From a virus, in IMG/VR virus record IMGVR_UViG_3300032093_001067, positions 1 through 20,116 of that record: a stretch of 20,116 nucleotides of DNA; one strand, written 5' to 3'. This document shows positions 12,014 through 19,411 of this stretch, piece by piece. Under the pieces are notes generated by a model. That model was not told the origin of the DNA, ran no database searches, and worked only from the letters and a program-made list of their open reading frames with translations. A program made the translations under genes and the position numbers. Within the stretch, counting starts at the first letter, position 1, and the number at the start of each line of letters is the position of its first letter.

Positions 12014-12673
12014 TTATTTCCCTGTTGAAAATTTCTTAATTGCGCTGCGCTCTTTACTATCTAACCTACTCCAGAATGCAGTCTTTGTATCTGCGTCAAA
12101 CTCTTGCAGATTAATGTAATCAATGACTCCCTGCATATCATTACGTCCTATAAGCATACGTACATCCATAGCTATGTTTTCGATGAGTTCTTTAGTCTCA
12201 TCATCCATGCTATCAAATACATCTACGGTAATAGGCTTGGCTGATCGTGGCTCGTCTTTCTTAATCGTAGCGTCAACAGCGTCATGTTCTGTGATCTCTA
12301 GCGCATTTAGGAACAAGTATCGACGTAGATACGTATGCATCGATCCTAAAGCCTGTATAGGAGGTGCTTTACCTGCTCCTGCTTCTGCGGTAGGACTGCG
12401 GAAATAAACGACTCCACCGAACTCTGAGTCAAAGATACGTAATGTTGCTACATCTTCACTAATGCTAAAGACTGAGCATAGTCCTAGATCGTCAAATATC
12501 GTATTAATGCTAGGCAGGAAGTCTGCCAGTTCAAAGTATTTGAATCCTGCGAATGAGTTAAAGCCTGACTTCTTGAGCGGTAATTCTTGTAGTAATACTC
12601 TGGCTTTTTGCAGCTTGCTATATACAAGCCATTGCTGCTGTTCGTGCTGTTCCTGCAATTGATAGTCATTCAT
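12014..12673 (-). CDS. erf: ERF-family single-strand annealing recombinase
   Basis: This 219-residue protein matches the essential recombination function (ERF) family. Its core includes KKSGFNSFAGFKYFELADFL (residues 34-53), LPSINTIFDDLGL, a strand LRIFDSEFGGVVYFRSP, and the signature GKAPPIQALGSMHTYLRRYL followed by FLNALEITEHDAVDA (about 100-132). The C-terminal 75 residues form a separate helical domain of DnaA/NreA-like spacing. ERF proteins form rings that anneal complementary single strands in phage recombination and genome circularisation. An AGGAA ribosome site precedes the ATG by about 6 nt. The SSB-like gene directly downstream is its likely partner. Confidence 0.92.
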   Translation of the reverse strand: MNDYQLQEQHEQQQWLVYSKLQKARVLLQELPLKKSGFNSFAGFKYFELADFLPSINTIFDDLGLCSVFSISEDVATLRIFDSEFGGVVYFRSPTAEAGAGKAPPIQALGSMHTYLRRYLFLNALEITEHDAVDATIKKDEPRSAKPITVDVFDSMDDETKELIENIAMDVRMLIGRNDMQGVIDYINLQEFDADTKTAFWSRLDSKERSAIKKFSTGK

Positions 12674-14946: not shown

Positions 14947-15347
14947 TAGAGAACATACTCAGCCGACTAGAGAAGGTTAAAGGTCGTAACGGAGCGTATA
15001 CGGCTTGCTGTCCTGCTCATAGCGATAAGTCTCCATCATTAGCGATAAGAGAATTAGACGATGGTCGTATCTTACTGAAATGTTTTGCTGATTGCAGCGT
15101 TCAAGATATTTTGGGTGCTATTGGCATGGATATGAATGATCTATTCCCTAACGTAAATAAAGACTTGCCTCAAGTCAAAAGAAAGTATTATGCTTCAGAC
15201 TTGCTTAGAGTCATTGAATTCGAGGCATGGGTAGTATCAGTAGCAGCTTACACAATGGCACAAGGACTGCCTTTATCGGAAGAAGATAGAGGTCGAATGA
15301 AGAAAGCACAGGCTAGGATAATGGAGGCAGTTAAATATGTCGGATAA
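14943..15347 (+). CDS. Primase zinc-binding domain protein (no catalytic domain)
   Basis: The start is ATG 14943, overlapping the upstream stop as ATGA. GTG 14937 is less likely. Residues 1-55 are a CHC2-type primase zinc finger: ACCPAHSDKSPSLAI (C-x2-H) and LLKCFADCS (C-x4-C), followed by IGMDMNDLFP, which normally connects to the polymerase core. Here the protein stops after a helical tail (residues 65-134), so the TOPRIM/RNA-polymerase domain is absent. It may guide a host or separate primase to template sites, or help the helicase encoded next, whose start lies within its last codons (11-nt overlap). Confidence 0.85.
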   Translation: MIENILSRLEKVKGRNGAYTACCPAHSDKSPSLAIRELDDGRILLKCFADCSVQDILGAIGMDMNDLFPNVNKDLPQVKRKYYASDLLRVIEFEAWVVSVAAYTMAQGLPLSEEDRGRMKKAQARIMEAVKYVG

Positions 15348-16338
15348 TATTTTTGCAATAGCGGAACGACTGTACGAAGATCGTCAAATAATCAAGTCAC
15401 AAGATATTGATGTTGAGAAGTATCTAAAGAACAATGATTTATCGGCACAGGTTAAATCTGCTAATAGCTGGCTAGACGAGATTTACCAAAACTATACTGA
15501 TCCTCAAAAGACTGACGATGCTGTAATGCCGTGGATTAAAACTCACTCAGACGTTAAATTTAGGCTAGGTGAAGTGACAGTCTATGCAGGTAGCAATGGC
15601 GGTGGCAAGTCTTTAGTCACAGGGCAGATAGCGTTAGGTTTAGTAAAACAGAACCTAAAGGTATGCATTGCCTCATACGAAATGAAACCTGTAACTACCA
15701 TTGTCCGTATGTTGCGTCAGTTTGCTGGTGAGAATATCAATGTACCGTTAACTCACGACAAAGAAGGCTACATTCGTGGTGTTTTAGGACGGTTTACTAA
15801 TTTCATTGACGAGAATCTTTATCTTTATGACCAACAAGGTAGCACCACTCCACAGAAAACGATAGCAATGGCAAGGTATTGTGCTGTTGAGTTAGGCATA
15901 AAACATATCTTCATTGACTCATTAATGAAGTGTGTGGTCGCAGAGGACTCATTAAATGAGCAAAAGTCATTCGTTGACGAGCTTTGTGCATTGGCTAGAG
16001 ACCATCACGTACACATCCATTTAGTTCACCATATCCGTAAGTTGCAGTCTGAGGAGATACAGCCTTCTAAGACCGATTTAAAGGGTTCTGGATCGATCGC
16101 TGATCAGGTGGATAACGTGTTCTTAGTCTGGCGTAATAAGAAGAAGGAGAACGCTCGTAGGAACAATGAGGACTATGACGAGAAGCAGCCTGATATGTTT
16201 CTAATGTGCCAGAAGCAAAGGAACGGTGAAGCTGAGGAGTTTTATGGGATGTACTTTGAGCACAACAGCCAGCAATTCGTAGACAGTTTGGGTGGTCAGC
16301 CTATAGACTTTGATAATCGTGGGAGCTTTCGTGCATGA
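15337..16338 (+). CDS. DnaB/T7-gp4-like replicative DNA helicase
   Basis: This is a 333-residue RecA-fold helicase. It has Walker A AGSNGGGKS (84-92), a conserved Glu in SYEMKP (113-118), Walker B HIFID (190-194), the DnaB H3-type LVHHIRK (229-235), and the GSGSIADQVDNVFLVWRNK region (250-268), which includes the H4 DNA-binding loop. A QRNGE element late in the protein supplies the arginine-finger position. The N-terminal 70 residues lack the full DnaB N-domain, so the enzyme is of the short phage type. It would unwind the fork as a hexamer. It overlaps the primase zinc gene by 11 nt, and its TGA overlaps the ATG of the frame at 16335, forming a replication operon. Confidence 0.93.
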   Translation: MSDNIFAIAERLYEDRQIIKSQDIDVEKYLKNNDLSAQVKSANSWLDEIYQNYTDPQKTDDAVMPWIKTHSDVKFRLGEVTVYAGSNGGGKSLVTGQIALGLVKQNLKVCIASYEMKPVTTIVRMLRQFAGENINVPLTHDKEGYIRGVLGRFTNFIDENLYLYDQQGSTTPQKTIAMARYCAVELGIKHIFIDSLMKCVVAEDSLNEQKSFVDELCALARDHHVHIHLVHHIRKLQSEEIQPSKTDLKGSGSIADQVDNVFLVWRNKKKENARRNNEDYDEKQPDMFLMCQKQRNGEAEEFYGMYFEHNSQQFVDSLGGQPIDFDNRGSFRA

Positions 16339-17182
16339 GTTGGCTCTTTTCGCAGGTGCTGGTGGAGGAATACTTGGGGGAAAACTTCTCGGATGGAGAA
16401 CAGTCTGTGCCGTTGAATGGGAACCATATCCAGCAAGCGTACTTGCAGCCAGACAGAATGACAAAATTCTCCCGAGTTTCCCGATTTGGGATGACGTTCA
16501 AACCTTTGACGGAAAGCCGTGGAGAGGAATTGTTGACGTTGTATCTGGCGGGTTTCCATGTCAAGACATCAGCACAGCAGGAAAAGGAGATGGTCTTGAC
16601 GGAGAGCGAAGCGGAATGTGGCGAGAAATGGCACGGATTATTGGCGAGGTACGACCAACATACGCATTCGTGGAGAACAGTCCAATGCTCGTTACTAGAG
16701 GACTTGAACGAGTCCTTGCAGACCTTACCAAGATGGGGTATGACAGTCGGTGGGGAGTTATATCTGCTGCAGACATTGGTGCAAACCACAGACGAGAGCG
16801 AATCTGGATTGTCGGAAAAACACAGTCTGCCTACACCAACTTGCAACCCACATATGCCGAACAAGAATGCAAATACGAAAGGTCCGAAAAATCTAGTAGA
16901 GGTGGCAGAAGGCAAATGGGAACATCTAATGCCGAAACAGAAATTGCCGACTCCGAGATCGTGTTCAGCAATGGCAGCAACATTGACAGACAAAGGCGAT
17001 CGATTCCCAAATTTGGAAACTGTTGTTGCTCGTATGGACAAAACGACAGTTGGTGGCAAACTGAACCCGATGTGGGTAGAGTGGCTGATGGGGTGGACGC
17101 TAGGGTGGACAGACTTAAAGCCATTGGTAACGGACAAGTGCCATTGTGTGCAGCAACAGCGTGGAGAATCCTAAGTGCCTGA
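16331..17182 (+). CDS. dcm: C5-cytosine DNA methyltransferase (Dcm-type)
   Basis: I start the protein at GTG 16331 (MHELALFAGAGGG), 5 nt after GGGAG (16321-16325), rather than at 16310. The 283 residues contain motif I FAGAGGG (7-13), motif IV GGFPCQDIS (73-81, catalytic Cys77), motif VI ENS (115-117), motif VIII RRERIWIV (154-161) and the C-terminal WWQTEPDVGRVADGV then RLKAIGNGQVP (motif X). The target-recognition region (about 165-240) is short and unusual. It should methylate cytosine in the phage genome, usually to evade restriction. The whole gene is shared with a second frame (16335-17174). The region looks more GC-rich than its neighbours. Confidence 0.93.
   Translation: MHELALFAGAGGGILGGKLLGWRTVCAVEWEPYPASVLAARQNDKILPSFPIWDDVQTFDGKPWRGIVDVVSGGFPCQDISTAGKGDGLDGERSGMWREMARIIGEVRPTYAFVENSPMLVTRGLERVLADLTKMGYDSRWGVISAADIGANHRRERIWIVGKTQSAYTNLQPTYAEQECKYERSEKSSRGGRRQMGTSNAETEIADSEIVFSNGSNIDRQRRSIPKFGNCCCSYGQNDSWWQTEPDVGRVADGVDARVDRLKAIGNGQVPLCAATAWRILSA
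16335..17174 (+). CDS. Phage protein encoded in the +1 frame of the whole dcm gene
   Basis: This is a 279-residue open frame shifted by +1 relative to dcm. Its ATG overlaps the helicase TGA (ATGA, 16335-16338), and the next gene's GTG directly follows its TAA. Its sequence resembles a phage protein family I recognise by pattern: LLARYDQHTHSWRTVQCSLL (about 103-122), LPRWGMTVGGELY, two PTP segments (SLPTPT and LPTPR) and, near the end, GGKLNPMWVEWLMGW then GWTDLKPL. Each of these blocks lies opposite a conserved Dcm motif. It has no known catalytic motif and the function is unknown. Either it is a genuine overprinted gene, or its similarity is carried passively by Dcm conservation. Confidence 0.65.
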   Translation: MSWLFSQVLVEEYLGENFSDGEQSVPLNGNHIQQAYLQPDRMTKFSRVSRFGMTFKPLTESRGEELLTLYLAGFHVKTSAQQEKEMVLTESEAECGEKWHGLLARYDQHTHSWRTVQCSLLEDLNESLQTLPRWGMTVGGELYLLQTLVQTTDESESGLSEKHSLPTPTCNPHMPNKNANTKGPKNLVEVAEGKWEHLMPKQKLPTPRSCSAMAATLTDKGDRFPNLETVVARMDKTTVGGKLNPMWVEWLMGWTLGWTDLKPLVTDKCHCVQQQRGES

Positions 17183-18945: not shown

Positions 18946-19140
18946 ATGAATAAAGTTTATTGCGATAATTGCAACTGGATTGGCGATGCTGATGATGTAC
19001 TAAAGGCACGTTGCGAAATGGTATTTGCTGACCCTGTGGATGTGTGTCCAAAATGCAACCATCCTGAGACAATATCGTCAGTTAAATCGTTATGGAGAAA
19101 GCGTCAAATTGACCAAAGATCAGAAGAAATACCTGTCTAA
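18946..19140 (+). CDS. Small zinc-finger protein
   Basis: This 64-residue protein has a strong GGGAG site about 8 nt upstream. It carries CDNCNW (6-11) and CPKC near 34-37, plus a Cys at 23, a typical two-knuckle zinc ribbon with a long loop (WIGDADDVLKARCEMVFADP). The C-terminal third is basic. It probably binds zinc and nucleic acid. It starts 67 nt after the divergent acidic gene and overlaps the following nuclease gene by 32 nt. Confidence 0.75.
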   Translation: MNKVYCDNCNWIGDADDVLKARCEMVFADPVDVCPKCNHPETISSVKSLWRKRQIDQRSEEIPV

Positions 19141-19411
19141 AGTAGCTAATTTAGGTTGTATAATTTGCACTAGGCTAGGGTATGCAGGGACTCCTTCTGA
19201 GATTCACCACGTTAGAGGTTTAGGCTTGGGGATGGGAGTAAGGAGTTCGCATTACGATACGTTACCGCTTTGTCCTGAGCATCATCGGGGGAATACCGGA
19301 TACCACGGAATGGGACGTAAAGCCTTTGAGCGTCAGTACGAAACGACTGAGCATGAATTACTTAAACAAGTTAGGGAAATGCTAAATGATGAAGAAATCG
19401 AAAGCAGCTAA
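19109..19411 (+). CDS. Ref-like (RecA-dependent) HNH nuclease
   Basis: I set the start at TTG 19109 (MTKDQKKYLSKVANLGC). No in-frame ATG is near, and the upstream frame reads through the zinc-finger gene. GGAG about 11 nt upstream is a weak site. The 100-residue protein has LGCIICTRLG (CxxC), PSEIHHVRG (H-H), DTLPLCPEHHRG (CPxHH) and GYHGMGRKAFERQYE. This matches the C-terminal nuclease of phage P1 Ref, whose cleavage depends on RecA filaments, and related NinX-type proteins. It would act at single-strand or displacement-loop DNA during recombination. The TTG start is uncertain. Confidence 0.75.
   Translation: MTKDQKKYLSKVANLGCIICTRLGYAGTPSEIHHVRGLGLGMGVRSSHYDTLPLCPEHHRGNTGYHGMGRKAFERQYETTEHELLKQVREMLNDEEIESS

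Follow-up and report, generated by a model that had tools for sequence, protein, structure and literature searches.

Locus organisation and gene neighbourhood

The window, i.e. the whole stretch of viral DNA analysed here (20,116 nucleotides; IMG/VR record IMGVR_UViG_3300032093_001067), carries two complete reading frames on the same DNA of its plus strand. The gene in frame 0, designated alpha, spans positions 16331-17182 (GTG start, TGA stop, 283 aa) and is assigned to the large subunit of a C5-cytosine methyltransferase. The gene in the +1 frame, designated beta, spans positions 16335-17174 (ATG start, TAA stop, 279 aa), and its product is proposed to be a second subunit with the target-recognition region (TRD) and motif IX. 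Both ORFs were re-derived from the window sequence, and the full-length dual coding described in the original prediction was recovered, as were its offsets of 4 nt between the starts and 8 nt between the stops. The blocks quoted there were also found in the +1 translation (LARYD..SWRTVQCSLL, LPTPT, LPTPR and GGKLNPMWVEWLMGW), and RWGMTVGGELY of beta was confirmed to lie opposite the stretch preceding alpha motif VIII in the window translations.

A possible shared ribosome-binding site (GGGAG, 16321-16325, plus strand), suggested by the sequence, is separated from the GTG of alpha by 5 nt and from the ATG of beta by 9 nt. An ATGA on the plus strand (16335-16338) combines the start of beta with the stop codon (TGA, 16336-16338) of the DnaB-like helicase gene that lies upstream. 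The helicase ORF itself (15337-16338) matches PF03796 (Pfam, 3.9e-18). A Pfam scan of ten window ORFs yielded helicase, Zn-ribbon, ERF, RecA-dependent nuclease and phosphoesterase matches, and no restriction endonuclease was found beside the locus among these ten. The window methyltransferase looks like an orphan phage methyltransferase. The ERF recombinase and RecA-dependent nuclease genes (12014-12673 and 19025-19411) are located near the DnaB-like helicase gene, and the presence of the three suggests a phage replication/recombination module. A third long ORF (278 aa) lies antisense to the methyltransferase gene on the minus strand (16301-17137). It was rejected as a real gene and is regarded as a chance ORF; it is not conserved, and its stops in relatives match those of their shuffles.

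The frame-0 protein

The alpha protein matches PF00145 over residues 4-182 (Pfam, E=2.2e-33), and its phmmer match to M.HhaI and M.HaeIII ends at residue 161-173. Five methyltransferase motifs were located in its translation, all on the plus strand: motif I (FAGAGGG, 16349-16369; also seen in alignment A3), motif IV (FPCQ with the catalytic Cys, 16553-16564), motif VI (ENS, which is ENV in other C5-methyltransferases, 16673-16681), motif VIII (RERIWIVGK region, 16793-16819) and motif X (AIGNGQVP, 17120-17143). Motif IV is invariant in A3, as are E115 and N116 of motif VI, R155, R157 and W159 of motif VIII and G266, N267, V270 and P271 of motif X.

The AF2 model features a confident methyltransferase core (residues 1-167), a weak C-terminal helix and no confident structure at residues 168-239, where a recognition domain would be expected (pLDDT about 25-37 over 170-239). 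M.HaeIII (E=1.7e-13) and M.HhaI were its top folds in Foldseek. Judging from motifs I, IV (PCQ), VI, VIII and X and from the predicted core fold, alpha is classified as a PF00145 C5-cytosine methyltransferase. TRD and motif IX are absent from the alpha chain, in which the Pfam and HhaI matches stop after motif VIII, and the motif IX pattern is missing from alpha in 341 of 369 loci (among the matches listed).

The +1-frame protein

Searched separately, as had been proposed, the two translations yielded PF00145 for alpha and two PHROG families for beta (phrog_1008, 3.8e-18; phrog_26627, 4.5e-12), but a profile scan gave no Pfam match for the window's beta protein. Apolipoprotein matches of the beta profile were rejected as chance. 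No HNH or other endonuclease domain was found in any of 144 beta proteins.

Three conserved blocks were located on the plus strand. LPTPT (16827-16841) and LPTPR (16944-16958) contain the residue pairs T167/P168 and T206/P207, which are nearly invariant in alignment A1. The C-terminal block LNPMWVEWLMGW (17061-17096), assigned below to motif IX, lies opposite PDVGRVADGV of alpha, as the original prediction had it; W247, E249, W250, L251, M252 and G253 are invariant in 144 sequences. The AF2 model of beta, based on 144 sequences, reached a mean pLDDT of 58 and a pTM of 0.30, and Foldseek found no match for it in the PDB. Such a poor fold of the lone chain might be expected for half a small domain and is not used as evidence here.

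In one locus (L180:6252-8057) the +1 protein continues for about 230 codons beyond the alpha stop and contains several further WPTP blocks; beta-only coding sequence therefore exists outside the overlap. In L119, L364 and L195, alpha stops early and beta is still open.

Distribution of the dual-frame arrangement

The two-frame arrangement was found in at least hundreds of viruses and bacteria, in which it is normally annotated as a single gene. Both frames are kept in at least 80 viral loci found via beta, nearly all of them open over the full length. Across about 80 viral loci, with the window's own copy excluded, beta identity is 48-70%. Dcm homologues lacking the open +1 frame had been named in the original prediction as the case that would speak against it; among 79 relatives picked on the Dcm frame alone, the +1 frame is stop-free in 76. 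Several candidates for single-frame Dcm homologues were rejected, namely those of mycobacteriophage SG4, Synechococcus phage S-H1, Lacticaseibacillus R23.9, Pseudomonas Marin and ctjLE16, all of which have a +1 ORF of 203-232 codons. Three gammaproteobacterial loci with stops in the +1 frame (L486, L488 and L489) were likewise discarded as counterexamples; their stops precede an internal beta start.

When a DNA pattern of the WVEWLMG block was scanned over viral and bacterial genome contigs, at least 220 loci with a recognisable catalytic domain were obtained. Relative to the catalytic domain, 214 of the 220 pattern loci have the block in precisely the +1 frame, and for 209 of these 214 the catalytic ORF extends across the site (both among the matches listed). 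Bacterial matches belong to Bacillota, Pseudomonadota, Actinomycetota, Planctomycetota and other phyla. Among genomes sampled from two classes, those with a pattern match are few (6 of 185 and 7 of 196). The lack of independent members of the +1 family had also been held to count against the prediction: beta members outside dcm loci were not found in the pattern scan of viral and genome contigs, which returned almost only dual-frame loci; beta can outrun alpha, e.g. in L180. The window's clade has the start of beta 4 nt behind that of alpha. Distant relatives have a beta start within alpha, in many cases an ATG 115-165 nt past motif I.

Selection on both reading frames

Both frames are open and under selection. 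In 119 non-redundant relatives, the +1 frame contains about one stop per gene, mostly the terminal stop of beta, compared to 6.2 after synonymous codon shuffling. A stop-free +1 frame was observed in none of 184 flanking genes. With expected values taken from shuffles that hold the alpha protein and codon usage fixed, observed and expected +1 stops in the 119 genes are 2 and 443 in the N-terminal region, 0 and 106 in the TRD region and 18 and 151 in the C-terminal region. Conversely, with the beta protein fixed and its codons shuffled, 325 frame-0 stops are expected in the TRD region and none was observed. The beta ATG is kept in all 119 relatives. Codon 2 of alpha is AAT in 115 of them and CAT in four, and never AAC, the codon that is commoner elsewhere in these genes; the beta ATG requires AAT and not AAC at this codon.

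Differences at alpha codon positions 1/2/3 were compared in 76 pairs. They amount to.095/.047/.202 before the TRD,.408/.202/.201 in the TRD and.146/.088/.174 in the C-terminus, with.189/.126/.406 in the flanking genes. The fast position of the TRD region is the wobble position of beta, which holds for the window's clade, the L131 clade and 18 additional mixed pairs drawn from viruses and bacteria. Amino-acid selection acts on the +1 frame rather than on frame 0 in the stretch from motif VIII to motif IX (16827-17041, plus strand). The alpha frame is open there, and its stretch from motif VIII to motif X is a weakly constrained linker because the DNA codes for beta.

The check for synonymous constraint in the Dcm frame, suggested with the original prediction, turned out positive. 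Change at fourfold sites of alpha is 0.136 in the N-terminal, 0.027 in the TRD and 0.106 in the C-terminal region, compared to 0.341 in flanking genes (13/14 pairs), and alpha synonymous sites change 2.5 to 13 times more slowly than those of neighbouring genes. The L131 clade, whose +1 ORF is confined to the middle of the gene, serves as an internal control. Its fourfold change is 0.262 where the +1 frame is closed, 0.119 at the beginning of beta, 0.026 in the TRD and 0.285 past beta, with 0.226 in its flanking genes. Constraint on alpha tracks the +1 ORF, and in the L131 clade only the middle of the gene is constrained. These statistics take pairs and shuffles as sampled and ignore kinship; the effects are large and concordant.

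Motifs IX and X

The C-terminal block of beta, LNPxWVEWLMGxP, is motif IX of C5-methyltransferases. The assignment follows from the L131 clade (27 loci), in which LNPDWVEWLMGYP, followed by GGSRxQRLxALGNxVVP, is encoded in frame 0, past the TRD region and ahead of motif X. The profile of this clade aligns the stretch to M.HhaI residues 269-317, which contain HPRECARVMGYPDSYK and GNSVV, i.e. motifs IX and X; this segment is weak alone (conditional E 1e-5) but collinear with a strong catalytic match. Since the frame-0 peptide of the L131 clade aligns to motif IX of M.HhaI, the invariant beta block is motif IX as well. The view of the +1 protein as a separate phage family is not supported, its C-terminal block being a methyltransferase motif whose peptide stands in frame 0 in the L131 clade.

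Among the matches listed, which comprise 369 loci, motif IX is found in beta in 339 and in alpha in 28; it is unrecognised in two, and in no locus do both chains carry it. Motif X is found in alpha in 357 of the 369 loci and in beta in two, and it is unrecognised in ten (again among the matches listed). Along one gene of the L131 clade, the selected frame runs 0, +1, 0 (L281-L302, L305-L306, L309, L311 and L318), an order that corresponds to the catalytic part, the TRD and motifs IX-X. In L364 and L145, motif X has shifted into the +1 frame together with the TRD, and in L364 motif IX has done so too. Alpha of L364 comprises motifs I-VIII only, with TRD, IX and X in beta, which resembles the M.AquI split but with overlapping frames.

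A proposed two-subunit methyltransferase and its alternatives

Based on these results, we propose with a probability of roughly 0.84 that one DNA stretch encodes both subunits of a single phage C5-cytosine DNA methyltransferase. Alpha would supply the AdoMet-binding and catalytic motifs I-VIII plus motif X. Beta would supply motif IX and, by its position, the target-recognition region with the PTP blocks; it probably carries the DNA-recognition part, a role for which position is the evidence. Given starts 4 nt apart, one possible ribosome-binding site and a beta ATG placed over the helicase stop, translation of both chains from one mRNA is probable, presumably by alternative initiation or termination-reinitiation. 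The two chains may then assemble into an active enzyme that would methylate the phage DNA, most likely as a protection against host restriction. The earlier claim that two products are made is upheld in that both frames are under selection as judged from stops, fourfold sites and codon positions, but translation of beta is something we infer. Some points speak against the two-subunit enzyme. The AF2 model of beta is poor and has no PDB match, which leaves its position as the basis for the TRD role. In M.EcoHK31I, the precedent for such an enzyme, the TRD is predicted to lie in the larger subunit (PMC3404938), unlike the arrangement here, where the region between motifs VIII and IX is selected in the beta frame. 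In addition, motif X was recognised in neither chain in 10 of 369 loci (among the matches listed).

The strongest competitor, which we consider improbable, is that beta is a real second protein independent of methylation, e.g. in anti-restriction or host takeover, and merely overlaps dcm. This would suit a protein without a recognised fold or domain that reaches over a large part of the catalytic region, further than required of a TRD subunit. It does not account for a C-terminal block that is motif IX by homology to the L131 frame-0 peptide and M.HhaI, nor for the exclusive occurrence of that motif in one chain or the other. TRD and motif IX are also missing from alpha, and motif X stands in the +1 frame of L364 and L145.

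Programmed frameshifting from frame 0 to +1 and back to 0 would yield one complete chain and no separate products, in agreement with the order of selected frames in the L131 clade. We consider it quite unlikely, because neither full-length frame would have to remain open. A spliced frame requires no open alpha across the TRD (0 stops compared to 325 expected) and no open beta over motifs I-VIII (2 compared to 443), and would have no need of the beta ATG kept in 119 of 119 relatives. Two shifts per molecule would also be required.

It is very unlikely that the +1 frame is an unselected by-product of dcm codon usage or DNA conservation. That chance can produce long frames in the window is demonstrated by the antisense ORF of 278 aa, but that ORF is not conserved and equals its shuffles. 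For beta, such an origin is excluded by the shuffles, by comparison with flanking genes, by the fourfold sites and by the internal control in the L131 clade, and the +1 frame of E. coli dcm contains 14 stops. Out-of-frame HNH homing endonucleases are documented in phage methylase genes (ShiLan-type insertions, PMC11855218), but with zero HNH or endonuclease matches among 144 beta proteins, an overlap that runs over conserved methylase motifs without an insertion, and a near-universal rather than patchy occurrence in this class, this explanation is hardly credible for beta.

For the two-subunit enzyme, the origin of the +1 protein by overprinting of dcm, as initially suggested, can be retained in part: only the portion over motifs I-VIII is naturally read as overprinted, but the C-terminal block is motif IX.

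Comparison with known systems

M.EaeI is a C5-methyltransferase of two polypeptides like M.EcoHK31I. Lee et al. reportedly described in 1995 that the smaller EcoHK31I gene lies inside the larger one in another reading frame. A second gene inside the first in another frame is what is seen here.

By description, the distribution of motifs is also alike, with motif IX on the second polypeptide and motifs I-VIII and X on the first. M.EcoHK31I consists of a larger polypeptide with motifs I-VIII and X and a smaller one with motif IX (PMC3404938). It belongs to a bacterial restriction-modification system and recognises YGGCCR, whereas the genes described here are mostly phage-borne. In the window's clade, moreover, the overlap extends over the full length and beta begins 4 nt after alpha.

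In the M.AquI split, alpha carries motifs I-VIII and beta the distal variable region and motifs IX-X (PMC3404938). L364 is like M.AquI in that frame 0 encodes motifs I-VIII and the +1 frame encodes the TRD together with IX and X. In the window, unlike in M.AquI, motif X stays in alpha, and the two genes share most of their DNA in different frames; a second chain with motif X, as in M.AquI, was observed for L364 and L145 alone. Artificially split M.HhaI and M.SssI tolerate a break in the variable region, and their fragments reassemble in the cell (PMC3404938, PMC3439449). These are engineered fragments with no or barely any overlap, unlike the locus described here. In the ShiLan-type case, too, a phage methylase gene contains a second protein, an HNH, in a different frame (PMC11855218). 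It is a mobile insertion that codes for an endonuclease and not for a part of the enzyme; no HNH match was found among the 144 beta members.

Annotation and significance

The two chains are currently listed as separate PHROG families, 363 for alpha and 1008/26627 for beta (1008 is labelled DNA methyltransferase), and are not described there as overlapping frames of a single locus. The cultured phages that were inspected mostly have an annotation for just one of the frames, which is alpha in Acinetobacter ABMM1, Salmonella S9-5 and ct2t2046, and beta alone, as a hypothetical protein, in Pseudomonas phPA-G. An exception are the Paenibacillus larvae phages, for which both ORFs are deposited. In Paenibacillus phage Diva (L508:805-1509, gp49/gp50), the second ORF is annotated as 'g49 internal gene'; it lies in the +1 frame and ends in LNPDWVECLMGFP. 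The Diva annotation thus has both ORFs as here, but without function or mechanism. Two DNA methyltransferases are listed at the gp49/gp50 position in related P. larvae phages, and the passages found in the 48-genome P. larvae phage paper do not discuss the overlap.

The principle is already known from EcoHK31I. No report of the dual-frame arrangement as a general feature was found in the literature searched, with most subscription journals and REBASE outside its scope. Within that literature, and as far as shown here, the novelty lies in the breadth of the arrangement, in the proof of dual selection, in the use of the +1 frame to encode the VIII-IX region, in the change of frame by motifs IX and X, and in an overlap that is full-length in the window's clade.

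We regard it as likely that a large class of annotated single-gene 'dcm' in phages and bacterial phyla are obligate two-subunit enzymes, with motif IX and the recognition region in the +1 frame and motifs IX and X mobile between frames. If this is true, the annotated 'dcm' protein alone would be inactive. In double-stranded DNA genomes it is rare for two long ORFs of one strand to overlap with demonstrable selection on both, and here this is seen in at least hundreds of loci. The recurrence suggests that the annotated protein of many phage cytosine methyltransferases is no more than half of the enzyme, which would explain failed expression or specificity assignment and change the prediction of phage methylomes. 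The loci could serve as a natural system for following enzyme motifs through reading-frame changes and as a source of ready split methyltransferases for targeted methylation tools.

In Mycobacterium phage Llama (L507) and several relatives, a frame break splits both ORFs. The locus of SG4 (L501) is intact, and the two phages form a natural pair for a comparison of methylation.
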